Shown here one piece after another: positions 3,928 through 37,992 of a DNA stretch of 64,000 nt. The stretch comes from Nitrosomonas sp. Nm34 (lineage in GTDB: Bacteria > Pseudomonadota > Gammaproteobacteria > Burkholderiales > Nitrosomonadaceae): contig NZ_FORD01000002.1 of the NCBI RefSeq assembly GCF_900113925.1, positions 1-64,000 of the forward strand. The letters are read 5' to 3'. Each line of letters starts with the position of its first letter. Position 1 is the stretch's first letter. Below the pieces are notes generated by a model. That model was not told the DNA's origin. It worked only from the letters and a program-made list of their open reading frames with translations, and did not search any database. The translations under genes were made by a program, and so were the position numbers.

Positions 3928-4652
3928 TAACATGAGTTCGACATAAGAATCATTACATCATGATTGGAAGAGCTTGAGGGAGTCTGATATTAAGCGAGGG
4001 TTTCTTCTCGCGAAAGGTGCAAGCCACCAGTCCAGCTCTCAGATTAACAAAGAAGTTAACTGGGCTGCGATGACAGGAATGCTCGATTTGCGAGATATAG
4101 CCCCGATCACCAGAGAGTTTGCCAAACAAGGAGCGCGTCAACTCTGGTACCGGGTCATGGTCATCCACATTGCCCGCCGTGATTTTGACTCCCAGCACTT
4201 TCCCTTGGTCATTGATCACCAAGGTGCAGCTTGAACCCATCAAACCAACCCACACTAGTCTTTCCCCGGGCAGCAAACTCTGCCATTACTTTATGCGACC
4301 CAATGCGGCGGTTATGGCACACGCTGATTTTGGTCGAATCGATGAAGCTGATGCCACTGCATTGCCCAAAGCGTCTGGTCAGAAAGTAGCACAAAGGCGC
4401 CAGGCTACCTTAAAGCCAACTCCACCAAGCGGTGATAGCTCACCAACCCTGGAAATAACCCCGCTGATACCTCAACACGTCATTTCGGTAATCGTGCTTA
4501 AACTCTTTACAAAATTCGTCACTCGCACAAAAAACCGTTGTCGTATTCATGGGAATCTGGCTCCTCTCATGATGAAATTCTTTTCCAAAACCACTTCATC
4601 ATAAGGAATTCAGGTTCCTTTTCCAGCTTTTTTTATGTCGAATTCACGTTAG
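3928..4652 (-). mobile_element. Decayed IS982-family element
   Basis: Imperfect terminal inverted repeats bound the copy: AACATGAGTTCGACATAAG at the left and TTATGTCGAATTCACGTTA at the right (17 of 19 paired). It is about 725 bp where the family is near 1 kb, so part of the interior is lost. Two related remnants lie at 25989-26220 and 54827-56008. Confidence 0.85.
3953..4550 (-). pseudogene. IS982-family transposase, internally deleted and frameshifted
   Basis: Reading leftwards from the ATG at 4550, the N-terminus (FCASDEFCKEF) is joined directly to a later segment (NDVLRYQRGYF), so about 50 residues are deleted. In-frame stops follow, then a frame with CSGISFIDSTKISVCHNRRIGSHK and GWFDGFKLHL, and a shifted frame with LVINDQGKVLGVKITAGNVDDHDP and LFGKLSGDRGYIS, the DDE transposase core of IS982 elements. 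The pieces are co-linear but need at least two frame changes and stop readthrough, so it cannot make a working transposase. It is useful only as a mark of past insertion-sequence activity. Confidence 0.85.
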
Positions 4653-24757: not shown

Positions 24758-25939
24758 TTATGCTTGAGGAGCACGAACCAGACCTATTCCGATATCAAAA
24801 GGATCCAGGCCGGTTTGTAAACCTTGAAGGGTCGCGCTACCGACAAGCCGACTGGTTAATGACAGGGGAGTAAGAATACCGACGCTCTTAATTTGCTCAG
24901 CCCAAAGGGCTGCAACGCCGGCGACGTGAGGTGTAGCCATACTCGTTCCACTCATGGCCTGGAAGCCTCCGCCTGGCTTAGCAGAAGTGATATTCATACC
25001 TGGCCCGGAAATATTAGCACCGGTATTTGAGAAATAGGCTACTGTTAAACCTTGCTCTCCCTGCCCTAAGGCAGCAACAGAAATGATACCTTCGGAGATT
25101 GCGGGAGGAGAGACAGTGATCTCAAAATCAGGATTAACATCCCTTCGACTCTCGTTGCCGGCTGCGGCTATGATTACAGATGCCTGTCCAAAAGCGTTTT
25201 GGGCTCTGAGCAGGGATGCCACTCTATCAAATAGCTGCACATTGGCTCGGTAGCCTTCCAATGCTCGAGAAGTGGCTAATTCAGACGGATACCCTTGCGT
25301 TACCAAATCATTAACCAGTCCGGGGAAATCAATGCCCAGTGACATGGAAATCACATTGGCACCATTATCTACCGCCCATTGGATAGCCTTGACGATGGAT
25401 TCGCTAGAACCTCCATTCTGCCCTAATACTTTACCAATCAAGGCTTTACTAACACCCGTTGCCACACCGATCCGCTGGCTTCCAGTAGTTCGTCCAAAGA
25501 TAGTGCCAGCACAATGGGTGCCATGGCCATGCTGATCACCGTTACCCTCGCCAGTGAAATCTTTTTCGATAATTTCCACTCCGGCAAACGCAGGATGATT
25601 TGCATCAATGCCTGTGTCGAGGACAGCCACGATAATGCCTTTGCCACTGAATGGAGAAGTGTCCGCTCCCACAGCTTTTACTCCCCAGGTGACATCTCCG
25701 ACAGCAGGAGTCGCAGTAGCTTCAAGTGGGGCAATTAGCTTCATGGGAATGGAGGGAGCAACGGCCAGCACGTCCCGTTTCTCGGTCAATGTATGAATCC
25801 GTTGGCGTTCGATATGTTCAATTTCTACTAACAACGGCGCACCCATGGATGCTTCGGCGGTAGGGAGATTAGAAGGTCCGAGGAGCGTATTGCGTGAGAT
25901 TGTTGATGGAGAACGTAATACAATGTGATTCTGTTTCAT
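24758..25939 (-). CDS. Subtilisin-like serine protease (S8), no signal peptide
   Basis: The 393-residue subtilase has the whole catalytic triad: Asp in VAVLDTGIDANHPAF, His in GDQHGHGTHCAGTIFG, Ser in MSGTSMATPHVAGVAALW, with the oxyanion Asn in IIAAAGNES. An N-terminal segment (1-90) could be a propeptide. The ATG at 25939 is preceded by AAGGAGAAG at good spacing; a longer frame to 26005 runs into the terminal repeat of an IS982 fragment and is rejected. There is no signal peptide or membrane anchor, so it is intracellular or exported by another route. Insert-like stretches (GYPSELATSRALEGYRANVQ) resemble stand-alone subtilases of accessory regions. The substrate is unknown. Confidence 0.88.
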   Translation of the reverse strand: MKQNHIVLRSPSTISRNTLLGPSNLPTAEASMGAPLLVEIEHIERQRIHTLTEKRDVLAVAPSIPMKLIAPLEATATPAVGDVTWGVKAVGADTSPFSGKGIIVAVLDTGIDANHPAFAGVEIIEKDFTGEGNGDQHGHGTHCAGTIFGRTTGSQRIGVATGVSKALIGKVLGQNGGSSESIVKAIQWAVDNGANVISMSLGIDFPGLVNDLVTQGYPSELATSRALEGYRANVQLFDRVASLLRAQNAFGQASVIIAAAGNESRRDVNPDFEITVSPPAISEGIISVAALGQGEQGLTVAYFSNTGANISGPGMNITSAKPGGGFQAMSGTSMATPHVAGVAALWAEQIKSVGILTPLSLTSRLVGSATLQGLQTGLDPFDIGIGLVRAPQA

Positions 25940-25988
25940 AAACTTCTCCTTATTTAAAGATAGATTCAAGATTGAAGTATCATTCTTG

Positions 25989-26220
25989 TAGCGTGAGTTC
26001 ACCATAAGGAAAGCTGTAAAAAGAACCTGAATTCCCTATGAAGAAACAATTTGGGAAAAGGGTTTCCTCACGGGAGGAGGTAGGTTCCGATGGATACTAT
26101 AGCGATTTTTTGTGCGATTGACGATTTTTGTAAAAGATTGGGGCCGCGTTGGGAGCGGCGCCTATCAGAGTTATTACTGGGACAACGTCGGCGTTTTAAA
26201 TATAATTCCAGTGTTTTTTC
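25989..26220 (+). mobile_element. IS982-family fragment (transposase start end)
   Basis: GCGTGAGTTCACCATAAG (from about 25991) matches the terminal repeat of the other two IS982 copies. The following leader (GGAAAGCTGTAAAAAGAACC) and the frame from the ATG at 26090, reading MDTIAIFCAIDDFCKRLGPRWERR, correspond to the transposase N-terminus. Homology ends within about 40 codons, just before the PhoX-family gene. The rest of the element is gone, so the small ORF here is not a live gene. Confidence 0.8.
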
Positions 26221-26227
26221 AGGAAAC

Positions 26228-27403
26228 CTAGCATGGGGCCGTTATTTCAAAGGTCACTCCATTTTCATGACGGCCGGTTTTTCCTCTTTGCGAGCTGAAA
26301 TACAAGCGTGATCCATCGGGACTAAAAGCAGGTCCTGTTATTTCTGAGTGGTCATGGCCGACCAGTTGTAGCAAGGGTTTGATTATTTTATCGGATAAAA
26401 TCACGATTTGCATATTTCCGCCATCCTCTGCGACCAATAGTTCACCGGCAGCATTGGTGATAATATTGTCCACACCGCTCAAAGCGGGTGCAGCATAGCG
26501 GGCGGCATCATAAATGATATCAAGATGGTGAGTATGGGTGTCATAAGCCCATACTCGATTATCACCTTTGGTCGTGAAATAAACCATGCCGTGGTGATAC
26601 CAGATTCCTTCACCGCCATTAAAACGGCTGCATTGTTTGATTTGTTTGCGTGTGGCAATTCTAATCGCCTCAGGATCAGGTAGACGATGCCAACATACTG
26701 TTTTCTGACGATCACCCAGTATTTCAGCTACTTCCAGAAAACCATCTTCCAGATCAGGGTAGCCAGCAGCATTGAGTGAATAGGAGGTATAACGATAGAA
26801 ACAACCATCAGGCTCGTCTTCGGTAAGATAAAGCTGTTTATTTCGTGTATCGACAGCTATGGCTTCATGTCTGAAGCGTCCGAGCGCTTTTCTGGCTTGT
26901 GCTGGTTTTTTTCCATAGGGATCACATTCCCAAACTAAACCGTGCTTAATTTCTTCACAAGAGAGCCATGTCTGCCACGGTGTGGCTCCACCAGCGCAAT
27001 TAAAGTGGGTATGTTTCAGGATGGGATAGGCATTGATCAACTTTCCATTTTGATCAAAGTGAAGTGCGCCTGCTCCGCCAGCCCTATTTTTCATTTCACT
27101 ATTGGAAACATAAATCCAGCCACCCTCATCGGTAGCAAAGGTGTTGCCCCCATCAGGTGCAGCGTGCCATCGATAACCAAACAGATTTTGCCCGGAATAG
27201 GCAACAATGCGAGAGGAATAGCCTTTGGGTAGGCGAACCCCATTTTGGTCAGGGGCTTGCAGAGGCCCAATTGATGCTAGACTTGATGTGGCTGCTTTGC
27301 TGGTGCTGACAGCCAGTAAATGGTGAGCCATCAGGCTAGCTAATCCGATGCAACCATATCGGAGCAGTTTTCGGCGCTGAAAATCGACATGACTACTTTT
27401 CAT
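26228..27403 (-). CDS. Tat-exported PhoX-family (DUF839) protein
   Basis: From the Met at 27403 the protein is 391 residues. It has a twin-arginine signal (QRRKLLRYGCIGLASLMAHHLL) and a beta-propeller-like PhoX/DUF839 domain: LPKGYSSRIVAYSG, WHAAPDGGNTF, GWIYVSNSE, the Cys/Glu-containing WQTWLSCEE, GRFRHEAIAVD and YLTEDEPDGCFYRY are family landmarks. True PhoX enzymes are calcium- and iron-dependent alkaline phosphatases; several landmark residues are present, but enzyme activity is not assured. Folding in the cytoplasm before export fits a metal cofactor. Its start lies within the last bases before pgl's end and it may be the last gene of the leftward operon. Confidence 0.8.
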   Translation of the reverse strand: MKSSHVDFQRRKLLRYGCIGLASLMAHHLLAVSTSKAATSSLASIGPLQAPDQNGVRLPKGYSSRIVAYSGQNLFGYRWHAAPDGGNTFATDEGGWIYVSNSEMKNRAGGAGALHFDQNGKLINAYPILKHTHFNCAGGATPWQTWLSCEEIKHGLVWECDPYGKKPAQARKALGRFRHEAIAVDTRNKQLYLTEDEPDGCFYRYTSYSLNAAGYPDLEDGFLEVAEILGDRQKTVCWHRLPDPEAIRIATRKQIKQCSRFNGGEGIWYHHGMVYFTTKGDNRVWAYDTHTHHLDIIYDAARYAAPALSGVDNIITNAAGELLVAEDGGNMQIVILSDKIIKPLLQLVGHDHSEITGPAFSPDGSRLYFSSQRGKTGRHENGVTFEITAPC

Positions 27404-27416
27404 AAAAGAGCAGCGG

Positions 27417-28094
27417 CTAATTGGTTTCAAAAATAGTGATCGGCGATTGACACTGCTGTACCAGTTGTACAAACGGAATAAAGGGATCAGGATGATTGAT
27501 TAATCGATCGAGTAATTGCCGTTTGGCAAGACTGGTCACGACAAGCGCAATATGACAGCTGCTGGCCAGTACCGGCAGGGCCAGACTGATGCGCGAACTC
27601 GGTGCGAACGGTGGTTCAGCTGCCTGGCACAAATAGGGCGTATCCTGATCGGGAGGCATGCCAGGAAACAGGGAGGCAATATGCCCATCTTCTCCCAATC
27701 CCAAGACTATCAGATTAAACGGTCGCGGGAGCTGGCAGAGTCGTTCATGCACCGTAGCCAGTGCTTCGGATGGGTGAGCATGCGGTGTTTTCAATCCGAT
27801 GAAATGAGCTTTCTCCGCCTTATCCTTTAGCAAATAGCTGCGTACCAGCCGTTCATTGGAGGCGTCTGCTTGGGTTTCCACCCAACGCTCATCGCTTAAC
27901 GTAATATAGATACGTTCCCATGGCAAGGCCTGACGGGCGAGTGCAGGCAGGTAATCACGTGGTGTTTGCCCACCGGGTACTACCAAGCTTACGTTATTGT
28001 TTTGCATGAGTGCATCGCGCAGAATCGAGGCAGCAAAATCAGCGAAAGCAGCACTTAGCTCATGCATGCTGTTATAGAAACGACGTTCAATCAT
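27417..28094 (-). CDS. pgl: 6-phosphogluconolactonase (DevB/SOL family)
   Basis: The 225-residue protein (ATG at 28094) belongs to the Pgl/NagB-like family: SLVVPGGQTPRDYLPAL, ITLSDERWVETQADASNERLV and LIVLGLGEDGHIASLFPG are signature blocks. The usual reaction is hydrolysis of 6-phosphogluconolactone in the oxidative pentose phosphate pathway. The start codon overlaps the stop of the upstream HAD gene in ATGA, so translation is coupled, yet no zwf or gnd gene is near. It could thus act on a sugar lactone in the neighbouring ulosonate pathway, which is inference. A longer frame to 28109 would run into the HAD gene. Confidence 0.88.
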   Translation of the reverse strand: MIERRFYNSMHELSAAFADFAASILRDALMQNNNVSLVVPGGQTPRDYLPALARQALPWERIYITLSDERWVETQADASNERLVRSYLLKDKAEKAHFIGLKTPHAHPSEALATVHERLCQLPRPFNLIVLGLGEDGHIASLFPGMPPDQDTPYLCQAAEPPFAPSSRISLALPVLASSCHIALVVTSLAKRQLLDRLINHPDPFIPFVQLVQQCQSPITIFETN

Positions 28095-28732
28095 AGTGTG
28101 AGTGCACACAAATCAGGAACAATCTTGACCTGCCTGGGAAAAGGATTCTCGTCACCTGGGCGGACACGGCCCAAGAATGCTGTTCCGTTCATAGTAGCAC
28201 CGTGATAGTCGGCCATGGCATCACCAATCATCAGGACCTGTTCGGGAATGAGTGCATAGCTAGTCAATATTTCTGCAATTAAGGTCTGTTTAGAGAGTGG
28301 AGAGCCCCGTACTTCGGTAAAGTGAGGTGATAGACCACGTCGCTCAACAATCGTTTTAAGTTCATTCTCCGGTGTACCAGAAGCGACAAACAAAGGAATC
28401 GTTGTAGCTGCCTTCTGAATCAATGCCTCAGCACCTGGCACAGCTTGGCTAGCGATAACAGCTTCAATCACAAGTTCTGAAAAACGTTGATCAAGCGATT
28501 GTTCTTCATCCATTGTCAAGGAGGGCTGACCTAGCAAATGCTGCTGAAAATAACGGAATTTGTGGTAACGGGACATGCCGCCGTTTTGCCGATGGTAGCG
28601 TACTACCTCAGTGACAACTTGCTCACCGTAAGAATGATACAGCTCAGCAAAAGCCTGAGTTTTGATATCACCAGATTCAACGATAACCCCATCAAAATCA
28701 AAGATAATGGCTTGCCAGTCTTTTATATTCAT
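28091..28732 (-). CDS. HAD-superfamily hydrolase (phosphatase)
   Basis: The 213-residue protein has the HAD nucleophile motif IIFDFDGVIVES (Asp11, Asp13), motif II in FVASGTPENEL, the Lys in SPLSKQTLI and the acidic motif IV in VLMIGDAMADYHGA. The alpha-helical cap between (about 16-85) places it in the HAD-IA/beta-phosphoglucomutase-like group. In the cluster it would occupy the place of KdsC, removing a phosphate from the ulosonate before CMP activation; the substrate itself is not known. It begins two bases after the SDR gene ends and shares an ATGA with pgl. Confidence 0.85.
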   Translation of the reverse strand: MNIKDWQAIIFDFDGVIVESGDIKTQAFAELYHSYGEQVVTEVVRYHRQNGGMSRYHKFRYFQQHLLGQPSLTMDEEQSLDQRFSELVIEAVIASQAVPGAEALIQKAATTIPLFVASGTPENELKTIVERRGLSPHFTEVRGSPLSKQTLIAEILTSYALIPEQVLMIGDAMADYHGATMNGTAFLGRVRPGDENPFPRQVKIVPDLCALTL

Positions 28733-28734
28733 AT

Positions 28735-29679
28735 TCAGGCTTTATTGTCAGAGGTGGAGGGAGTAGCGTCATCATCTTCATTCGCATGATGGATGTGCTG
28801 GTGAATTTCCCTGAGGCAGTCCAGCAACCCTTGGCCTAAATCGACGTGTTCATTGAGTACCAGTTTACGTCCGATGCGCGGCTGAAAGGCATAAGGCGTG
28901 ATCTCGTAATGATGGACAACGTTAGCTTCCTCAAAATGCAATTGAACTGACCATGGCATGATTTCGGAGATCATAGTCATTACGTCGCGGATACGCAGTT
29001 TTTCCTGACCTGTCAGGATCAAGTGGCGATTGGCAAACTCTGGAGCGAGCACTTGCACACTCATGCGCGCAGCATCTTCGACATGGATGTATTCGCGCAT
29101 GGCATTGCCACTGCCGTGATAGGTGATCGTATGTTTTTGCACCGCTTCATGCAGCATGCGATAAATGCCATTACGCAGATCGGCGCGCCGACCATATAAT
29201 GAGCCATAGCGCAAAATGGTATATTCCAATCCATAACGTTCATGATAAGTTTCAGTGAAGCGTTCAGCTGCTTGTTTACTGGCGCGATAAAATGAGCCCG
29301 ATTCAGAATACACATACACGCTGCTGGCAAAGATAAAACGGCGCGCGCCCACTAATCGTGCTGCTTCCAGCACATGCATGTTCCCCAGCACATTGATAGT
29401 GGCGGTGGCGAGGGGTTTATCATGTGCTTCGTCGATATCAGCGATAGCGGCAAAGTTGTAAACAGCAGCTGCGCCTTTTGCTGCTTCGATTACTTGTTCA
29501 ATATCCATGAGGTCCCCAACGATCATTTCCTGATCAGGTCTTTGGTAAGGGGAGGGGGAACGATCAAACAGGCGAACCTGATAGCCTGCTTCCGACAGCG
29601 CATCTGCGACATGGCTACCTAAAAAGCCACTGGCACCAAATACGACAGCAATTTCATCAGATGCTAACTTATTTTCCAT
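28735..29679 (-). CDS. NAD-dependent epimerase/dehydratase (extended SDR)
   Basis: The 314-residue protein (ATG at 29679; the frame can be opened at a TTG one codon earlier) is an extended short-chain dehydrogenase acting on nucleotide sugars or related sugars. It has VVFGASGFLGSHVADAL (NAD-binding GxxGxxG), the FASSVYVYSES region with the catalytic Ser, and a YxxxK-type site in FYRASKQAAERF. The last part (230-314) is the substrate domain. It overlaps the dehydrogenase gene upstream. It may set a stereocentre or oxidation state of the proposed ulosonic acid or its precursor. Confidence 0.85.
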   Translation of the reverse strand: MENKLASDEIAVVFGASGFLGSHVADALSEAGYQVRLFDRSPSPYQRPDQEMIVGDLMDIEQVIEAAKGAAAVYNFAAIADIDEAHDKPLATATINVLGNMHVLEAARLVGARRFIFASSVYVYSESGSFYRASKQAAERFTETYHERYGLEYTILRYGSLYGRRADLRNGIYRMLHEAVQKHTITYHGSGNAMREYIHVEDAARMSVQVLAPEFANRHLILTGQEKLRIRDVMTMISEIMPWSVQLHFEEANVVHHYEITPYAFQPRIGRKLVLNEHVDLGQGLLDCLREIHQHIHHANEDDDATPSTSDNKA

Positions 29680-30610
29680 CAATTAACCCTATGTTGACTA
29701 AGCCATGCAATAAATTGTCCGCTGCTTCCATTTCCATGCGATAGCGTGATTCTTTGGCAAGCGATCCAATATGCGACGTTAACGTAATATTGTCGCATTG
29801 GAGTAGAGGACCTTGATATGGTTCCTGTTCGAATACATCGAGTGCAGCGCCCCCTAAATATCCTGAGACCAATGCATCATGAAGCGCCATTTCATCAACT
29901 AGTCCGCCCCGTGCTGCATTGATCACGATAGCGCCTTGTTTCATCCGTTTGAATGCAGCATCATCTATGAGATGATGGGTAGCCCTGCTATAGGGGAGAT
30001 GGAGGCTAATGATATCTGCTTCTGCCAAAAGTTGCTCCAACGGCATGAGCGTGACACCGGCAGGCGTTTGCGGTAAAAGATAAGGGTCGTGCGCGATTAC
30101 GGCTGCTTCAAAAGCTTGACATAGCCGCGCAACACGTCGGCCAATATACCCCAGGCCGACAATACCCACTGTTTGCGCAGCCAGTAAATGCCCTTGCGTG
30201 CGTGGCCATGCACCAGTGCGCAACATCCGGTCAGTCTGGCTGATTTGTCGGAGTGTGGCGAGCATCAACCCGAGTGTCAGTTCGGCAACTGCCTGGGCTG
30301 GCGCTTGGGGAGTATTAGAAACAGCGATATTGCGCTGTTTGGCGGCAGCTAAATCAACGCTATCCAGACCGGTTCCGCAGCGCGAAATCACCTTGAGGCG
30401 GTTAGCAGCAGCAAAGACACGTTCAGTGAGGGGTTCAATTCCTGCTAACAAGCCCACCGTGTCTTTATCCAATAATGCGATAATTTCTTCTTCAGTTAAC
30501 TTGCGCCGATGAGGATTAGTAATAACCGTCCATCCCGCTTTGAGCAAATGCTGGATGGACGGGTTGTTGTCAATGTCAAATGAAGAAGTGGAAATGACGA
30601 CTTTACTCAT
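29669..30610 (-). CDS. D-2-hydroxyacid dehydrogenase, phosphoglycerate dehydrogenase-like
   Basis: The 313-residue protein has the SerA-type fold without an ACT domain. The NAD-binding region carries VGIVGLGYIGRRVARLC (GxGxxG) and VIAHDPYL; the catalytic residues are Arg in VINAARGGLVDE, Glu in LDVFEQEPYQG and His in TSHIGSLAKESR. It oxidises a D-2-hydroxy acid or reduces a 2-oxo acid with NAD(H). Standard serine synthesis is unlikely given the location. Its ATG overlaps the aldolase stop in ATGA. In the cluster it could make the 2-oxo acid or aldehyde precursor, but direction and substrate are unknown. Confidence 0.87.
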   Translation of the reverse strand: MSKVVISTSSFDIDNNPSIQHLLKAGWTVITNPHRRKLTEEEIIALLDKDTVGLLAGIEPLTERVFAAANRLKVISRCGTGLDSVDLAAAKQRNIAVSNTPQAPAQAVAELTLGLMLATLRQISQTDRMLRTGAWPRTQGHLLAAQTVGIVGLGYIGRRVARLCQAFEAAVIAHDPYLLPQTPAGVTLMPLEQLLAEADIISLHLPYSRATHHLIDDAAFKRMKQGAIVINAARGGLVDEMALHDALVSGYLGGAALDVFEQEPYQGPLLQCDNITLTSHIGSLAKESRYRMEMEAADNLLHGLVNIGLIDGK

Positions 30611-31368
30611 AGCTGGGATCTTATGGTTTGCATGTGATTGCGGCAGAGTGTATCAAGAATACGGATATCGAGGCTGTAGCCAAGAAAGTTAAAACCGGCG
30701 TTAATACGTTGCTGTAATGCATTTGGCTCAGGCTCAATGACATGAATGCCTCCTGGTTTGCTCAGGCGATGTCCGGCATCCAATATCTGCTTGATGGCAT
30801 CGTGTACTTGTGGATGATCAAGTTCACCTGGCCGCCCCATTGAGCCAGATAAATCATAAGGGCCGATGATATAAGCATCTATCCCTGGCACCGAAAGAAT
30901 CGAATCAATGTGATAGACAGCGTCTACATGTTCAATCATGGCAATGATTACTGCATTATTTTTCAACCACTGCCGATATTCATGAAAACGAGCACCATAA
31001 CCTTGCGCACGTGCCAATCCAACTCCTCGTTTTCCTTCCGGAGGATAATATACGGCTTCTACTGCTGCTTGAGCATCTGCGGCAGATTTGATCATGGGCA
31101 CCATAATGCCCGTTGCGCCGGCATCCATCACGCGCTTAATCTGATCCGGATGATTGGAAGTAAGTCTGACAATTGCCGGACAGTGTTTACCATCGAGTAC
31201 CTGGATAATTGTCTGTACTTCGCTTAATTCCAGCACGCTATGCTCCATATCCAGTACTAACCAGTCAAAGCCGGCTGAAGCCATGATTTCGGCAATGGCG
31301 GGATGCCCAAGCGTAATCCATGAACCAATCGTTAACTCGGAGCGTGCAAGTTTTGCTTTTAATTGCAT
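30607..31368 (-). CDS. HpcH/HpaI-family class II aldolase
   Basis: The 253-residue TIM-barrel aldolase carries the family residues: LVLDMEHSV (catalytic His about 43), IVRL (Arg about 68), MIEHVDAVYHID (metal-binding Glu) and IIGPYDLSGSMG (metal-binding Asp). These enzymes use a divalent metal and join pyruvate or an alpha-keto acid to an aldehyde, giving 4-hydroxy-2-oxo acids. In this operon, placed between a KdsB-like cytidylyltransferase and a dehydrogenase, it would make a 3-deoxy-2-ulosonic acid from pyruvate instead of the PEP-dependent KdsA route. That role is inferred from context. Confidence 0.85.
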   Translation of the reverse strand: MQLKAKLARSELTIGSWITLGHPAIAEIMASAGFDWLVLDMEHSVLELSEVQTIIQVLDGKHCPAIVRLTSNHPDQIKRVMDAGATGIMVPMIKSAADAQAAVEAVYYPPEGKRGVGLARAQGYGARFHEYRQWLKNNAVIIAMIEHVDAVYHIDSILSVPGIDAYIIGPYDLSGSMGRPGELDHPQVHDAIKQILDAGHRLSKPGGIHVIEPEPNALQQRINAGFNFLGYSLDIRILDTLCRNHMQTIRSQL

Positions 31369-31390
31369 GAAAAGTCCTTAAAGAAAATCG

Positions 31391-32140
31391 TTAATAGCTG
31401 CTCAGCAATGGATCTGATTCCATCAGCTTGGAAACACGTGTCAAATCGGCTTCAGTGTCGACCGCTTGACTGTTGAACTCGGTTTCTACCATTTTGACTC
31501 GAATGTTGTGTTCCAGTAAACGCAACATATCAATTGATTCAAGTTGCTCCAATGGCGTGGCTGGTAATTGGGTATAATGAAGTAGCATGGCGCGTGTAAA
31601 AGGAATAATGCAAACCTGCTTATAGGCAGAAGTTGAGACAAAGCCTGATTTTGCCAATGTAGGAATGGGCTGGCGCGACATATACAGGGCATCCCCTCGT
31701 TGATTCATGATGACTTTAATAGTATTGACATCATAGAAATCAGCTTCGTTTTCGATGCGCCGAACAAGATTGACGCAACCTAATTGTGGATCAGTACGAA
31801 ACGGGGCGACCGCAGTATCAATCATGCGCGGGTGTGTCATGGGTTCATCGCCCTGGACCATTACAATGAGTTCTGCATCCAGGCCAGTAATCGCTTCTGC
31901 AACGCGATCACTTGCACGCTCATGCTTGTCTGAAGTCATGAGGACAGATGCACCAAAAGCTTCTGCAGTTTGTTGAATTTCTTCATCACAGGTCGCAATA
32001 TAAGTTGCATCGAGTGCATCACTTAAAGCAACGCGTTTATAAACATGCTCTAACATGGTGCGTCCGAGCAATTTAGCAAGTGGCTTGCCTGGGAAGCGAG
32101 ATGAGCCCATACGTGCTGGAATGATAGCGATTGTTTTCAT
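31391..32140 (-). CDS. CMP-ulosonate cytidylyltransferase, KdsB-like paralogue
   Basis: The 249-residue protein has the KdsB fold: IAIIPARMGSSRFPGKPLAKLLG (CTP-binding loop), YIATCDEEI, VMVQGDEPM, and LEQLESIDMLRLLEHN with VDTEADLTRV at the end. It would couple a 3-deoxy-2-ulosonic acid to CMP. It departs from housekeeping KdsB: the SG(T/S)(D/E)R sugar-binding segment reads ERASDRV, and the HIGIYAYR block is replaced by KQVCIIPF. I therefore read it as a paralogue for a different sugar acid, not the enzyme for lipid A-core Kdo. It is the first gene of the leftward operon. Confidence 0.83.
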   Translation of the reverse strand: MKTIAIIPARMGSSRFPGKPLAKLLGRTMLEHVYKRVALSDALDATYIATCDEEIQQTAEAFGASVLMTSDKHERASDRVAEAITGLDAELIVMVQGDEPMTHPRMIDTAVAPFRTDPQLGCVNLVRRIENEADFYDVNTIKVIMNQRGDALYMSRQPIPTLAKSGFVSTSAYKQVCIIPFTRAMLLHYTQLPATPLEQLESIDMLRLLEHNIRVKMVETEFNSQAVDTEADLTRVSKLMESDPLLSSY

Positions 32141-32445
32141 GATAAGTTAATGCTTGGTAATGATTTATTTATCGGGATTAAGAGGCGAGGAAGTCAAGTT
32201 TAAGCCATGAAAAGACGATCTCATTTGTCCTGAAGATTGATTAGGAGGAAATCGAATCTCTTGCAAAAATAAAGTAACCTGGCTGCTTTTTTGGTAAATA
32301 AGGAGCTGGACGTGTAAAATTGTTCACCTGGATTTTCGCATACCTTCTACTGCCTGATACTCAGAATATTGATTATTTCTGATCTGACTCATAAAAAATT
32401 GCAGATAGATTATTCATCTTAAACGCTTGTAATCATAACACAGGT
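32141..32445. other. Divergent promoter region of the polysaccharide cluster
   Basis: No gene is visible. This gap separates the leftward sugar-acid operon from the rightward transferase genes and should hold promoters for both. I found no clear operator. Confidence 0.4.
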
Positions 32446-33714
32446 ATGAAAGCTCTCTTTTTTCTTCGTCATTATAACGATATCGATCATATTACCCCCG
32501 TTATCTCCAAGTGGATCGATGCGGGCCATACCTGTGATGTCATTTTGATTGGGGCTAAGCGATTTCGCTATGATTTTCGTATTTCCTTTTTAAGTCAACT
32601 GTCAGGCGTTAGGGTTGCGCATATCCGCGAAGTATTTTCAACTGTTCAATTTCTCAAATGGCGCTTGCAGATGTTATTGTTGACGGATAATTTACGTCGC
32701 TTATTTATCGGGCCTTTTATCCGTTGGTTAGCAGATAGTTACGATGATAAGCGGCGTGCGCCATTATGGCGAGCTACTGCAGAGCATTTACTAACGCGCA
32801 GCTTTGAGCATTCCGACAAGGGTGTGATTGCTTTTGACTGGATTGAACGAAACTCCGTGATTGCTGTGGAGTGGGTTGAGACTGTTGTTGCCATGGCGCG
32901 AGAAAGAGGACTAGGTACGGTTTCATTGCCACACGGTGATAGTCCGCATGCCAATCAACTTATCCGACGAGGAGAGTGGCATGTTGGCCCTGATTCTTTA
33001 TTCTCAACAGCGCAGATCTTCGATAAACTCGTGGTTCCAAATGAACTTTGCGCAAAACGTTTCCGACCTTTTCTGGCAGAGCGCTCGATCGCCATATTAG
33101 GATCACCGCGCTACAGTGAAGAGTGGTTAGCCAAATTGGCAAAACTGATGCCCCTTTCGCCTTTAACTCGCTCCGATAGTCGTCTCAAAATAGTCATGTT
33201 TCTGAGAAAGGCGAACTTTACGACATTCTGGGAAGAGGTGAATGAGGTCGTACACATGATTGCTGCCTTTCCCGGGGTGGAGCTTGCGATCAAACCTCAC
33301 ACACGCAGTGGATGGAAACAGTCCTTGACCAAGGACAAAGCTCTGAAGCAATTACCGAATGTCACCATCGCAGGCGATGAGGTGCATTCCATTCATTTGA
33401 TGAACTGGGCGGATATTTGTATTGATTTGGCTACTTCCGTGGTCTTTGAGGCTGTCAGAGTCAAGAAGCCAGTATTGGCTGCCGATTATCTTCATGCCGG
33501 TCGTTCAGCCATTGCCGTTTACATGCCCGAGACTGAGTTACGTTGCCGGGATGATGTATATGAAAAAGTAAATAATTTTCTTTCTCAGGGTTGTCATGAT
33601 TTTTACATTGAAGAACATCGTCGATATTTTCTGCGAGAAATGCTCGATGTATCAGGACCAGAGGTATTGTCTCGCTATGTCTCATTACTTGAGACAGCCG
33701 CGGGGCGTCACTGA
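32446..33714 (+). CDS. GT-B-like glycosyl/glycerophosphotransferase, copy A
   Basis: The 422-residue soluble protein is unrecognised at family level beyond a GT-B-like layout. The N-terminal half begins MKALFFLRHYNDIDHITPVISKW and carries GTVSLPHGDSPHANQLIRRGEW. The C-terminal half has VELAIKPHTRSGWKQSL and DICIDLATSVVFEAVRVKKPVL, followed by ADYLHAGRSAIAVYMPETEL. That last Ser-x-x-x-Glu pattern is what CDP-glycerol glycerophosphotransferase-like and KpsC/KpsS-type Kdo transferases show at the donor site. A close paralogue is at 34598-35866, with an FkbM methyltransferase between. It plausibly uses the CMP-sugar made by the divergent operon. The family assignment is an inference. Confidence 0.6.
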   Translation: MKALFFLRHYNDIDHITPVISKWIDAGHTCDVILIGAKRFRYDFRISFLSQLSGVRVAHIREVFSTVQFLKWRLQMLLLTDNLRRLFIGPFIRWLADSYDDKRRAPLWRATAEHLLTRSFEHSDKGVIAFDWIERNSVIAVEWVETVVAMARERGLGTVSLPHGDSPHANQLIRRGEWHVGPDSLFSTAQIFDKLVVPNELCAKRFRPFLAERSIAILGSPRYSEEWLAKLAKLMPLSPLTRSDSRLKIVMFLRKANFTTFWEEVNEVVHMIAAFPGVELAIKPHTRSGWKQSLTKDKALKQLPNVTIAGDEVHSIHLMNWADICIDLATSVVFEAVRVKKPVLAADYLHAGRSAIAVYMPETELRCRDDVYEKVNNFLSQGCHDFYIEEHRRYFLREMLDVSGPEVLSRYVSLLETAAGRH

Positions 33715-33755
33715 GATTATTAGCAAGATTTTATTTTGATGAGGTCAACGAGTTT

Positions 33756-34559
33756 ATGCGATCCTTATGGACTGCAATAAAATATGTCTTTTCGACTAAT
33801 TTTCTAAAAGACTTGGCAGTAGGGGCGTATTGGGTTAAAGGCGGCTATACCACTATCAATGTCAGAGGGTTATCTATTCTGATCACAATAGATCACTGGC
33901 GCATTCTCAAACGGGCAAAGACTTATACGGTTAAAGAGCCGGATACCTTGGATTGGATTGATCATTTTGATCCAGGGTCATGCTATTTCGACATTGGTGC
34001 CAATATAGGTCAGTATTCGCTTTACCCGGCCAAAAAATACGGTCGTGAAGTTGAGATCTATGCGTTCGAACCGCAGAGCAATAATTACTACGCACTCAAC
34101 AAAAATATTTTTTATAACAATCTTAAAGATCGCATCAGTGCTTATTGCGTGGCAGTATCAGGCAAAAGTGAATTCTCTAAATTGTATATACCTAAATTTA
34201 TTCCGGGTGGGAATCGTTCCCAATTTGGAGAAGAATCGCTGGATACGATGAAAATACCTACTTCACATATTCAAGGTATGTTTGGAGTAACTTTGGATGA
34301 TTTATGTGGCAAGTGGGGTTTTCCTTACCCAAACTATATTAAGATTGACGTCGATGGGATAGAAATTCCTATTCTTAAGGCAGCAGAAAAAGTATTAAGT
34401 CACCCCAATCTTAAGTCAGTGATCGTTGAACTTGGTACGCCTGCAGAACAACAAGAGGCCATTACCATCATGAAGCAGGCTGGGCTCGAGTTGAAACAAA
34501 AATCGAATAAAAATTGGGGTGAGACCTATTTTATATTTGAGAAAAATAAAATTTCTTAA
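33756..34559 (+). CDS. FkbM-family SAM methyltransferase
   Basis: The 267-residue protein carries the class I methyltransferase motif I in CYFDIGANIGQYSLYPAK, motif II in EVEIYAFEPQSNNYYAL and the FkbM-type NYIKIDVDGIEIPILKAAEKVL block. FkbM enzymes usually O-methylate sugars or polyketides. Here it lies between two paralogous transferases, so it probably methylates a residue of the same glycan. The ATG has a short RBS-like GATGAGG ahead. It is more AT-rich than its flanking genes at the 3' end. Confidence 0.85.
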   Translation: MRSLWTAIKYVFSTNFLKDLAVGAYWVKGGYTTINVRGLSILITIDHWRILKRAKTYTVKEPDTLDWIDHFDPGSCYFDIGANIGQYSLYPAKKYGREVEIYAFEPQSNNYYALNKNIFYNNLKDRISAYCVAVSGKSEFSKLYIPKFIPGGNRSQFGEESLDTMKIPTSHIQGMFGVTLDDLCGKWGFPYPNYIKIDVDGIEIPILKAAEKVLSHPNLKSVIVELGTPAEQQEAITIMKQAGLELKQKSNKNWGETYFIFEKNKIS

Positions 34560-34597
34560 ATCTCTTCTTGAAAATTTTGTTAACTTGATTTCCGTTC

Positions 34598-35866
34598 ATG
34601 AAAGCTCTTTTTTTCCTTCGCCATTATAACGATATCGATCACATCACGCCGGTTATTGTGAAATGGGTGGAACGAGGTCATGTCTGCGATATTGTGATGA
34701 TTGGTAAGAAGCGATTTGATGGGGATTATCGTATCGAATTTCTAAAAAAATTAGAGGGAGTACGGATTGCTCATCTGCGTGATTTATTGTCATTCGTAGA
34801 ATTCACAAAATGGCGTCTGCAAACGTTATTACTCGTTAGAAGTTCGTATCGATCTTTTTTTGGCCCGCTGGTTAAGGGATTGGCCAGGTTTTATCATGCT
34901 AAGCGGCGCAAGGCGACCTGGTTGCATACGACTCGATATCTACTGGGAAGAAGCTTTCCGGATGGTGGAAAAGGGGTGGTGGTATTTGACTGGATCGAGA
35001 GAAATTCAGAAATTTGTGTCGAATGGGTAGAGACTCTGGTGGGTATCGCTCGCAACCAAGGGCTTGGAACGGTTTCGCTCCCGCATGGCGATAGTCCTCA
35101 TGCAAGTCAATTGATACGACATGGTGAATGGCAACTCAAGCCAGATACATCATTTTCAGCAGCAGGTATGTTTGATAAAGTTGTGGTGCCGAATGAGTTA
35201 TGTGCCAAGCGTTTTCGTCCTTTTCTTGATAATCAGAAGCTCATTGTGTTAGGTTCACCGCGCTACTGTGAAGAGTGGTTAGCCAAGCTGGCAACGCTTA
35301 TACCTTCATCCCCGTTAAAGCGCTCTGATAGCCGACTCAAAGTTGTCATTTTTCTTAGAAAAGCCAATTTTACAACTTTCTGGGAAGAAGTGGGTGAGGT
35401 CGTGCAATTGATCGCAGCATTTCCTGACGTGGAATTGGCGATTAAGCCTCATACGCGTGGTGGCTGGAAACAATCTTTGACTAAGGATGTTGCGCTGCGG
35501 CGTCTGACAAATGTAACCATGATAGGAGATGACATTCATTCCGTCCATTTGTTACAGTGGGCTGATGTCATCATCGATCTGGCAACTTCAGTTGCCTATG
35601 AAGCAATTAGAACAGGTAAGCCTGTCTTGGCTGCTGATTATTTACATGCAGGGCGTTCTGCTGCAGCGGTCTATATGCCGGAGACTGAATTGCGTTGCCG
35701 TGATGATGTGTATAAAAAAATTGATGAATTTCTTACAAATGGCTATCAGTCTCATTATATTGAATCGCATCGGCAACAATTTATAAAGGAGATGCTAGAT
35801 GTGCCAGGTACTGATGTTTTGCCTCACTATGTAACATTGCTGGAATCACAGGCTGAAGGAAAATAG
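34598..35866 (+). CDS. GT-B-like glycosyl/glycerophosphotransferase, copy B
   Basis: It is also 422 residues and collinear with copy A over its entire length: both start MKALFFLRHYNDIDHITPVI, share GTVSLPHGDSPHA, VVPNELCAKRFRPF, LGSPRY and ELAIKPHTR, and end in the same YLHAGRS block. Divergence is scattered, greatest in residues 90-125. So this is an old tandem duplication, not a recent copy. It may add a second, linked or identical residue. The genes read in the same direction with about 40 bases to the FkbM gene and about 130 to the next. Confidence 0.6.
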   Translation: MKALFFLRHYNDIDHITPVIVKWVERGHVCDIVMIGKKRFDGDYRIEFLKKLEGVRIAHLRDLLSFVEFTKWRLQTLLLVRSSYRSFFGPLVKGLARFYHAKRRKATWLHTTRYLLGRSFPDGGKGVVVFDWIERNSEICVEWVETLVGIARNQGLGTVSLPHGDSPHASQLIRHGEWQLKPDTSFSAAGMFDKVVVPNELCAKRFRPFLDNQKLIVLGSPRYCEEWLAKLATLIPSSPLKRSDSRLKVVIFLRKANFTTFWEEVGEVVQLIAAFPDVELAIKPHTRGGWKQSLTKDVALRRLTNVTMIGDDIHSVHLLQWADVIIDLATSVAYEAIRTGKPVLAADYLHAGRSAAAVYMPETELRCRDDVYKKIDEFLTNGYQSHYIESHRQQFIKEMLDVPGTDVLPHYVTLLESQAEGK

Positions 35867-35993
35867 CTCATTCAGGTGGTATTGGTAAAATCAATCTCGA
35901 TTCGAGCCTTGAATTTTTATAAGAAAACAGATTTTCAAAGTATGAGGGTATTTCCTCTTTAACAAAGTTATTTATTAACCTCTGACATTTCAA

Positions 35994-37241
35994 ATGCGTG
36001 AACATCTCATCAGTTCATTTAGCCCGGGAGAGGACATACATGCGAGCAATTGGCGTGACATTTTTGCAAGATGCGCGCTAGCTTTCTTTTGTATCGCTTT
36101 ATGGCAGAAATGGTCACTTTTTTATGCTTTTTTCTTTCTCACATCTGCATGGATCATTGATGGCGGACTCCAGAAGTTCGGCAGGCTGATTGAGGAACCT
36201 TTAGTCTTGGGTATTCTGGTATTTTGTGGTGTATTAGTCTTGGGATTGCTTTGGAGTGATTATTCCGATATGGGTCAGAATAAGTGGAAGAAATATTTCA
36301 TTCTTTTGACATTTATTCCTTTTCTTTCTTTGTTGAATAAAGAGCGATTACCCTGGGTGATGGCTGCTTTTTTAATCGGCTATTTAGGTGTGTTATTGAC
36401 GGGCTGCTATCAGTGGATGGTTTCAGGAGAAAAAGGGGCGCCTTTTTTCGAGATCTCATACCTTGCTTTTTCAGCCATGTTAGGAATTGGAATTATTTTG
36501 ATGGCATTCTTAGGGAGTATCTGCCAGGCTAGGAAAATAACCTTCTTATGTTGGGCTATTGCAATTTTTCTGCTTTTTTTACAATTTCACCAGAGCGCAA
36601 GAGGATTATTGTTAGCTACAATATTGACGCTATTACTTTTGATTTTTCTACGCTATAGATCTCAGGGCAAGAAGTTTCTCGGTATTTTAGCTTTGTTTAT
36701 GACTGTGATTCTCTTATTTGCGGTGAGCAGTAATGACTTCCAGGAAAGATTAGAACTTGTAAAAAATGATCTTAACTTGGTTTTGCAAGGCGACTATACG
36801 ACTAGCTTAGGTTATCGTCTCGCAATATGGGATGTCGGAGTGCATGGCATTGCGAAGCGGCCTTTGTTAGGGTATGGGACGGGTATGCCGGAAATATATT
36901 TTGAAGAGACCATACAAACTTACAAAAATGGGATATATAAAGATTTACCAGAATTCCAGAAAACTTCGCATTACCATAATGACTGGATAGAGATCGGTAT
37001 GCATTTGGGAGGGCTTGGTATTTTTGCGCTTGTTTTTCTCCTCTGGAGCTGGTTTCAGACATTGAAGAATCACCAATTGAGTTTGCTTGGAATGGTATTG
37101 ATTTATTATGTATTCCTGGCAGGATTGACAGATACATTTTTACTTTACAACAGGATACCGATCATCTTGCTAGTCGTCACGGCAATAATGGTTTGCTGGC
37201 AGAGACCAATCATCGGAGCATACAATCTGCTAAAAATATAA
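35994..37241 (+). CDS. O-antigen ligase/polymerase-like membrane protein (Wzy_C)
   Basis: The 415-residue protein has about 10-12 hydrophobic segments, with a large periplasmic loop (about 255-330) containing YRLAIWDVGVHGIAKRPLLGYG and KTSHYHNDWIEIGMHLGGLG. The Arg in the first stretch and the His/Asp in YHNDW are typical of the Wzy_C/WaaL family, which transfers or polymerises lipid-linked glycans at the outer face of the inner membrane. Ligase and polymerase cannot be told apart from sequence. Its location makes it the likely assembly enzyme of the cluster's glycan. Confidence 0.82.
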   Translation: MREHLISSFSPGEDIHASNWRDIFARCALAFFCIALWQKWSLFYAFFFLTSAWIIDGGLQKFGRLIEEPLVLGILVFCGVLVLGLLWSDYSDMGQNKWKKYFILLTFIPFLSLLNKERLPWVMAAFLIGYLGVLLTGCYQWMVSGEKGAPFFEISYLAFSAMLGIGIILMAFLGSICQARKITFLCWAIAIFLLFLQFHQSARGLLLATILTLLLLIFLRYRSQGKKFLGILALFMTVILLFAVSSNDFQERLELVKNDLNLVLQGDYTTSLGYRLAIWDVGVHGIAKRPLLGYGTGMPEIYFEETIQTYKNGIYKDLPEFQKTSHYHNDWIEIGMHLGGLGIFALVFLLWSWFQTLKNHQLSLLGMVLIYYVFLAGLTDTFLLYNRIPIILLVVTAIMVCWQRPIIGAYNLLKI

Positions 37242-37299
37242 AAATTTATAGCGATCTGATTTTAGTTTGGATTTAAATGCTTACGCTTAGGGAGGATAG

Positions 37300-37992
37300 A
37301 TGATGGCAAAAATGCAGTCTCCAACAATAGAAAACCCGAATGTTTTGCTCCCCGTAAATCCTGCGATTGAGCAATATATGCGTAGCCTGGTAAAAAAAAC
37401 GGATCATCCGGTATTGGTTGAAATGGAAGCCTTGGCAAAGCAGAAAAATTTTCCGATTGTTGATCGATTAGTAGGGACTTCCTTGGAAGTGCTGGCAAAA
37501 ATGATTAATGCTAAGCGTGTGTTTGAGTTTGGCAGTGGTTATGGTTATTCTGCTTATTGGTTTGCAAGAGCAGTCGGTGCTGAAGGAAGGGTGGTATGTG
37601 CTGATGGGAATGCTGCTAATAAGGTAAAAGCTGAGCAATATCTATCCTCAGCCGGTTTATGGGATAGGATAGATTTCCATGTTGGCTATGCTCAGGAAAT
37701 ATTCTCGCAAACAGAAGGTGTGTTCGATATCTGCTACAACGATGTGGATAAAGGTGAGTATCCTAACGTGTGGCAAATGGCAAAAAACCGAATTCGCCCA
37801 GGTGGCTTATACATTGCCGATAATGTACTTTGGCATGGACGAGTTGCAATAGAAAATTTTACTGACATTGTTTCCGGGTGGACAGAAGCCATCCTCACGC
37901 ATAATGAGCTGATTTTCAATGATCCCGAGTTTGATGCTTTTATCAATCCAACGCGTGATGGGGTTATTGTGGCACGCAGAAAGATGGCATAA
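37300..37992 (+). CDS. Class I O-methyltransferase (catechol/caffeoyl-CoA type)
   Basis: The 230-residue protein resembles Methyltransf_3 O-methyltransferases: the SAM site is KRVFEFGSGYGYSAYWFARA (about 66-85), followed by GRVVCADGN, and the metal-binding and substrate side is FDICYNDVDKGEYPNVW and PGGLYIADNVLWHGRV. The usual YIDADK is YNDVDK here. A GGAGG site sits seven bases ahead of tandem ATGs at 37300 and 37303. It may methylate the glycan or be unrelated; the spacing of about 60 bases to the Wzy-like gene allows an operon. Confidence 0.85.
   Translation: MMAKMQSPTIENPNVLLPVNPAIEQYMRSLVKKTDHPVLVEMEALAKQKNFPIVDRLVGTSLEVLAKMINAKRVFEFGSGYGYSAYWFARAVGAEGRVVCADGNAANKVKAEQYLSSAGLWDRIDFHVGYAQEIFSQTEGVFDICYNDVDKGEYPNVWQMAKNRIRPGGLYIADNVLWHGRVAIENFTDIVSGWTEAILTHNELIFNDPEFDAFINPTRDGVIVARRKMA

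Follow-up and report, generated by a model that had tools for sequence, protein, structure and literature searches.

A minus-strand operon and its divergent neighbours

The window analysed here, the first 64,000 nucleotides of contig NZ_FORD01000002.1 of Nitrosomonas sp. Nm34, contains at positions 27417-32140 six open reading frames (ORFs) on the minus strand, whose families were assigned through Pfam and NCBIfam profile matches. On the strength of sequence comparisons we consider it probable that this operon constitutes a dedicated route to a 2-ulosonic acid activated by cytidine monophosphate (CMP), which sugar is probably not 3-deoxy-D-manno-oct-2-ulosonic acid (Kdo) and would be destined for a surface glycan. 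In the order of transcription the genes encode a KdsB-like cytidylyltransferase (31391..32140; Pfam CTP_transf_3, NCBIfam NF009905); an HpcH/HpaI aldolase (30607..31368); a D-2-hydroxyacid dehydrogenase closest to phosphoglycerate dehydrogenase (PGDH), as judged by Pfam, NCBIfam, and solved relatives (29669..30610); a short-chain dehydrogenase/reductase (SDR) of the NAD-dependent epimerase/dehydratase family (28735..29682; Pfam and NCBIfam); a hydrolase of the haloacid-dehalogenase (HAD) superfamily, probably a phosphatase (28091..28732; Pfam and NCBIfam); and a 6-phosphogluconolactonase-family protein (27417..28109), which scores 147 bits with TIGR01198 against a cut-off of 124.45. The intergenic distances in that order are 22, -4, -14, 2, and -19 bases—negative values denoting overlaps, the last one between the HAD and the lactonase genes—as derived from ORF coordinates whose start codons were chosen mechanically. 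ORF coordinates, Pfam, and NCBIfam thus agree with a preliminary description of this DNA as to the positions of the genes and their overlapping start-stop pairs; the five operon genes named there stand, and to them must be added the lactonase, which had been left unnamed even though the interval described begins with it.

The aldolase matches Pfam PF03328 with 120.9 bits (cut-off 25) and keeps the catalytic His43, Arg68, Glu146, and Asp172, which residues were likewise kept in 33/33 rows from outside the family Nitrosomonadaceae; locus L097 was omitted from the aldolase alignment A2. Its closest solved relative is 2-dehydro-3-deoxygalactarate aldolase; its scores with the NCBIfam models for HpaI, GarL, and RhmA stay below their cut-offs, and it belongs to a subfamily that carries GPYD at the metal site and is associated with cytidylyltransferase genes, not with catabolic operons. 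As to the dehydrogenase, Arg77—which we take to occupy the place of a substrate arginine in PGDH—was kept in 91/91 family rows and in 22/27 outside rows. Since this enzyme is closest to PGDH and retains that arginine, we think it plausible that it may supply hydroxypyruvate or a phosphorylated 2-keto acid, a donor that would leave a hydroxyl at C3, so that the product would not be a 3-deoxy sugar. The reading of the aldolase as a plain pyruvate aldolase is as well supported by the sequences, and on pyruvate as the donor the putative 3-deoxy character of the product would depend. A broad choice of aldehydes is described for HpaI enzymes in the accessible part of PMC8560999, whose reference list includes titles on hydroxypyruvate as a nucleophile. 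For the HAD protein, a sequence comparison with solved structures found no relative.

On the plus strand, divergent from the operon, lie a gene that we designate GT1 (32446..33714), an FkbM-type methyltransferase (33756..34559; Pfam), a GT1 paralogue 68% identical to GT1 (34598..35866), a Wzy_C membrane protein of the O-antigen ligase/polymerase family (35994..37241; Pfam), and an O-methyltransferase (37300..37992; family match). The preliminary description was right about the two methyltransferases and the Wzy_C protein; its two "transferases" are the paralogues, of 422 residues each and without a Pfam match, the first of which is predicted to adopt a GT-B-like fold. This structure model, with a predicted local distance difference test score of 68, matches many GT-B enzymes without pointing to any one donor, and the sequence of GT1 found nothing among solved structures. 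GT1 was matched in 121/125 Nitrosomonadaceae genomes, four of these 121 matches (G115, G146, G148, G149) being weak or partial. Among 40 operon neighbourhoods from that family, GT1 or its paralogue adjoins the operon in 33; in seven neither was seen there, two of these (L071 and L078) being stretches too short to show it. In the sister genera a GT2-family gene comes next after GT1, the two being fused in L079, an arrangement that upholds the statement that the operon stands beside glycosyltransferase genes in several genera. A third GT1 copy lies elsewhere in the Nm34 genome, about 7 kb from a NeuA-type gene. We infer from the model and these positions that GT1 is a candidate transferase of the operon's sugar.

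At the other end of the operon, positions 24758-27472 encode a protease of the subtilase family together with a protein of the PhoX family; among the 40 neighbourhoods a PhoX-like gene occupies that place in six and a protease in one.

Conservation of the gene set and the KdsB-like subfamily

The 40 neighbourhoods, of which 20 come from the window's own genus and 20 from three sister genera, show the five-gene core (KdsB-like, aldolase, dehydrogenase, SDR, and HAD) in identical order and strand in 39 instances across the four genera, the one exception being L081, whose contig stops after the dehydrogenase. The proposal of a single conserved unit is thereby borne out. The lactonase closes the operon in 20/20 neighbourhoods of the genus and in 0/20 of the sister genera, L077 and L081 being too short to tell. 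Within the family, where the loci include Nitrosomonas, Nitrosospira, and Nitrosovibrio, the aldolase was matched in 122/125 genomes and at no less than 73% identity in 121 of the 125, although in some of them in pieces; the match in G115 is distant (31% identity), and the aldolases of G109 and G110 share 99% and 96% identity, respectively, with that of the window. In one genome (G143:C14:121979-122690, within L083) the aldolase gene consists of two overlapping pieces, one with an internal stop, the remaining operon being apparently intact. The KdsB-like protein was matched in 59/60 congeners at 73-90% identity, with no second full-length KdsB-like protein among those 60. In other families of the order a KdsB match was obtained in 38/40 genomes, 37 of which aligned along most of its length with 32-38% identity.

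The aldolase-linked KdsB-like proteins are set apart from ordinary KdsB by both phylogeny and motifs as a separate CYTIDYLYLTRANSFERASE. We considered a protein as linked when an aldolase of more than 40% identity was encoded within the same stretch at a distance of at most 6.9 kb. The tree comprised 73 rows—nine of them from Nitrosomonadaceae, the window included, with L115 omitted as a copy of L095 and L127 because its frame has fewer than 200 residues—and divided into a clade of 40 with 100/100 support, formed by 39 linked proteins plus the unlinked L112, and 33 other proteins, all of them unlinked. Two proteins that the script had scored as unlinked, both with the variant motif, were regrouped with the linked ones: L094, which has a contig end alongside, and L100, whose adjacent aldolase is only 34% identical. 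The two changes between linked and unlinked in the group table of the tree are due to L112, a long-branched KdsB-like protein (L112:9649-10407) that has no aldolase nearby and a 2-hydroxyacid dehydrogenase about 4 kb off. That the operon's cytidylyltransferase is distinct from ordinary KdsB is therefore what the 100/100 clade indicates.

The canonical HxSGTxR occurs in 0/121 linked proteins, of which 114 fit the variant pattern and seven are near variants or partial, with the proviso that 91 of these 121 rows come from one family and that some genomes are represented twice, so that the counts are not independent. The 34 unlinked proteins comprise 25 that fit the canonical pattern and nine that fit neither, most of the latter with other canonical motifs and L112 variant-like. 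Where canonical KdsB has HxSGTxR, RHxGxYAY, and LEQLR, the window protein has HERASDR, KQVCIIPF, and ESIDMLR, and its linked relatives have similar changes; the altered sites are presumably those that bind Kdo, which in the Escherichia coli KdsB is held by His181, Gln211, and their neighbours. Gln175 and Asp204 are invariant in 91/91 family rows and 30/30 outside rows (L115 being excluded from the column counts), at which positions canonical KdsB has mostly His and Glu. The residues for cytidine triphosphate (CTP) and metal, Arg10, Arg15, Lys19, Asp98, and Asp228, were kept in 91/91 family rows; among the 30 outside rows, one of which is partial, each was kept in 29 or in all 30. The positions of these residues in KdsB were compared with those in the available portion of PMC3149649.

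Three genomes (G288, G296, G233) carry a canonical KdsB alongside the linked protein, and in a fourth (G182, locus L098) the second KdsB belongs to a third type. The window protein misses the curated equivalog KdsB models, with 140.6 bits for TIGR00466 (cut-off 155.2) and 161 for NF003948 (281), and the PseF model gives it only 37.2 bits. We rejected its identity as an ordinary KdsB in view of the separate clade, the altered motifs, the coexistence with canonical KdsB, and the missing KdsA and WaaA (see below); by the same sequence criteria the substrate of the linked subfamily is probably other than Kdo. Two CTP_transf_3 proteins are present in the Nm34 genome, namely the KdsB-like protein of the window and a NeuA-HAD fusion adjoining a NeuB-type gene (both Neu names by inspection), which fusion forms part of a second CMP-sugar locus at C89:51304-59920, whose end lies in L002.

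Outside the family, the gene set was followed by an alignment scan with the aldolase alone, in which we considered the best 80 of 252 loci encoding a relative, 50 of them being of the Nitrosomonadaceae type by identity and 30 lying outside (more than 33% identity). All five core genes are present in 46/50 of the former; in the remaining four (L129, L137, L147, L151) the stretch ends early, at 4,004 to 12,710 bases. The outside loci include metagenome-assembled genomes (MAGs) titled Thermodesulfovibrionia, Magnetococcales, Acidobacteria, Gemmatimonadetes, Elusimicrobia, Omnitrophota, Micavibrio, and Brocadiaceae, as well as Candidatus Achromatium. The aldolase is accompanied by a KdsB-like gene in 26 of these 30, by the dehydrogenase in 24, and by both in 21, so that the conservation of aldolase and dehydrogenase together with the cytidylyltransferase holds within the family and in most of the outside loci considered.

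An SDR was found in 12 outside loci and a Gfo/Idh protein in another 12, with no locus having both; the SDR loci associate with a HAD gene (9), the Gfo/Idh loci with a SIS isomerase resembling GmhA (8, among them L164, which is without a KdsB-like gene) and with an IMPase-like phosphatase (4). These sets look like two front ends that yield the same product or similar ones. The order HAD-lactonase-aldolase-KdsB-dehydrogenase-SDR is seen in L192, an alphaproteobacterial MAG, with tight gene spacing throughout, and in L190, titled Micavibrio, where the spacing is tight only as far as KdsB; in L144 a reading frame on the opposite strand separates the HAD and the lactonase. A lactonase, identified by a family match in the L144 piece, as in the window protein, and by 26-28% identity in L190 and L192, lies beside pathway genes in these three loci and is therefore probably a genuine, if non-essential, component of the pathway. 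PseF/NeuA-, NeuC-, and NeuB-type genes adjoin the cluster of L192. An archaeal MAG, Candidatus Hadarchaeum, contains the aldolase on a contig of 5.5 kb (L146:3733-5270) along with a linked KdsB-like gene whose relatives in the tree are bacterial, and contamination seems likely.

Lipopolysaccharide genes in the Nitrosomonadaceae

Kdo-lipid A underlies most Gram-negative envelopes. In the 125 family genomes, KdsA (TIGR01362) was above the cut-off in none, the Nm34 genome attaining 39.6 bits versus 314; LpxC (PF03331) was likewise found in none, and WaaA (PF04413) in one, G123, on a probable contaminant contig. The same three models were positive in the E. coli controls. The two weak KdsA matches examined, L003 and L034, were rejected since their best scores are as 3-deoxy-D-arabino-heptulosonate-7-phosphate synthases, and a survival of WaaA in the family was also rejected, the G123 assembly being 6% contaminated and carrying WaaA beside a second LpxK on one contig. 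Across the order, whose members outside the family were searched for LpxC alone among these three proteins, 250 genomes were sampled; LpxC was present in 238 of them, corresponding to 238/242 outside the Nitrosomonadaceae; the 12 genomes lacking LpxC are 8/8 family members, two of another family (designated f40), and two MAGs at 84-86% completeness. The f40 genomes, G099 and G591, perhaps represent a second lineage of the order free of lipopolysaccharide (LPS); G099 is also without a KdsB match.

LptD was above the cut-off in 124/125 family genomes, that of Nm34 included (C122:8504-9691), so that some Lpt cargo is likely. LpxK, of the lipid A 4'-kinase family, was above the cut-off in 82/125, namely in 82/85 Nitrosomonas and in none of the three sister genera (Nm34 copy at C51:6947-7906), and was thus kept although LpxC is missing from all 125 genomes. 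The loss of LPS genes was already known for N. europaea and Nitrosospira multiformis from the gene survey of PMC3087551, in which, according to its accessible passages, only lpxK out of nine genes occurs in the former and only lpxA in the latter; the term "kdsB" is absent from the text of that article, and the operon is not mentioned in those same passages. As to what might anchor an outer-membrane glycolipid in the family, according to the available passages of PMC11324152 at least 13 of the 17 genes of the Caulobacter ceramide/phosphosphingolipid cluster have good orthologues in N. eutropha, the LptC2 and flippase genes not being among them, and its first sphingolipid genes are listed in the accessible part of PMC9386255. 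By analogy, a ceramide anchor is thinkable.

Proposed pathway, rival explanations, and known systems

In the pathway that we propose, the aldolase would condense a sugar aldehyde with a 2-keto acid of short chain, either pyruvate or hydroxypyruvate, the latter being furnished by the PGDH-like dehydrogenase. One of the two partners would perhaps be prepared by the SDR, jointly with the lactonase in Nitrosomonas. The HAD protein would take off a phosphate, the KdsB-like enzyme would couple the resulting ulosonic acid to CMP, and the GT-B-like GT1, together with the GT2-family enzyme in the sister genera, may then transfer the sugar to a surface glycan, which possibly belongs to a lipid A-free glycolipid. 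The substrates, the order of the steps, the transfer, and the acceptor in this scheme are what we infer from the gene families. A bolder extension, to which we assign a rather low probability, is that the Nitrosomonadaceae have swapped the Kdo-lipid A LPS for a lipid A-free, perhaps ceramide-based glycolipid that leaves through the Lpt machinery, with the CMP-ulosonate of the operon in the place of Kdo. If true, that substitution would define a new class of outer-membrane lipopolysaccharide, whose Kdo substitute is built by a keto-acid aldolase.

Several observations weigh against the proposed pathway or its connection with the envelope. Within the family, GT1 is missing beside the operon in five of the 38 neighbourhoods that are sufficiently long, and one Nitrosomonas genome of 90% completeness (G048) has no match for the KdsB-like protein, the aldolase, or GT1, its LptD and LpxK being present. 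The window protein exceeds the cut-offs of NF009905 (with 301.5 bits) and NF003952, both of them subfamily models that bear the name of the Kdo enzyme, and is the sole KdsB-type protein found in its genome, as would be expected of the Kdo enzyme. To these are added the dependence among the motif rows, already mentioned, and the position of L112, an unlinked protein with a variant-like motif, inside the linked clade. Outside the family, where the module resembles an accessory cluster for a glycan, no KdsB-like gene accompanies the aldolase in four of the 30 loci (L117, L164, L169, L189), and a canonical KdsB is retained in at least three of the genomes concerned. Finally, the link between the sugar and the missing LPS is a co-occurrence inside one family.

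The rival that survives best, and to which we concede a substantial chance somewhat short of even, is that the CMP-ulosonate is real and serves a capsule, an exopolysaccharide, or a glycoprotein, with no relation to a lipid replacing the LPS in the outer membrane. The Wzy_C, methyltransferase, and GT2-family genes that flank the operon agree with that possibility, as do the accessory character of the cluster outside the family and the company of other CMP-sugar genes in L192; in the opposite sense, the operon is near-universal in the family while its flanks vary, and the retained LptD makes some cargo likely.

A non-orthologous route to Kdo itself appears improbable. In such a route the sugar that the aldolase condenses with pyruvate would be D-arabinose, either free or as the 5-phosphate, the HAD protein would act as KdsC, and the KdsB-like enzyme would deliver CMP-Kdo to an unrecognized transferase. 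The absence of KdsA would fit that scheme, and so would the uniqueness of the KdsB-type protein in the genome and the names of the two subfamily models that it exceeds. Nevertheless, the clade and the motif changes are common to linked proteins of other phyla, three genomes carry the linked protein beside a canonical KdsB, WaaA and LpxC are missing along with KdsA, and the route would leave the SDR and the dehydrogenase without a role. The preliminary description had named, among the outcomes that would refute its proposal, that the cytidylyltransferase be the only KdsB of the genome and make CMP-Kdo: the first part of that statement turned out to be true, and the second is unlikely, since KdsA occurs in none of the 125 genomes, WaaA in one as a probable contaminant, and the subfamily coexists with canonical KdsB elsewhere. 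That the operon is an assembly of unrelated metabolic genes, neighbours by chance, can be practically dismissed, for even if the lactonase by itself might have its place in the oxidative pentose phosphate pathway, the conserved order across four genera and the recurrence of the gene set across phyla contradict the notion.

The route to a CMP-ulosonate other than Kdo thus remains the reading that we prefer. Among the matches listed by a search of the open-licence literature in PubMed Central, there was no description of the gene set or of its product. The Nitrosomonadaceae are an ecologically central family that has no KdsA or LpxC in the genomes searched and keeps LptD, and the operon points to a sugar to look for in that envelope, in an organism that is culturable and non-pathogenic; beyond the family, a CMP-sugar pathway would be present in many phyla, with two mutually exclusive front ends among the loci found. 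Since the linked cytidylyltransferases of those phyla exceed models that carry the name of the Kdo enzyme, annotation will probably assign them to it.

When set beside known systems, the operon resembles the Kdo pathway in its predicted last step, by a KdsB-like cytidylyltransferase of the CTP_transf_3 family that retains the residues for CTP and metal, and in possessing a probable HAD phosphatase, the phosphatase of the Kdo pathway being KdsC; it departs from that pathway in having an HpcH/HpaI aldolase and two dehydrogenase-type enzymes instead of KdsA, in its KdsB motifs, and in belonging to a family with neither KdsA above the cut-off nor a credible WaaA. In comparison with sphingolipid outer membranes, such as those of the LPS-free Sphingomonas or those with the phosphosphingolipids of Caulobacter, N. 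eutropha lacks the LptC2 and flippase orthologues, and the orthologues that this species does have offer a candidate anchor (PMC11324152, in the passages cited above). With the nonulosonic acid pathways (NeuB/NeuA and PseI/PseF) the operon would share, in its predicted product, a CMP-activated 2-keto sugar acid for surface glycans, whereas no NeuB-type synthase is found among the six minus-strand proteins and the cytidylyltransferase is of the KdsB kind. The aldolase, for its part, has the fold family and the catalytic residues of the catabolic HpcH/HpaI, GarL, and RhmA aldolases, and is distinguished from them as a member of a GPYD-bearing subfamily that is linked to cytidylyltransferase genes.

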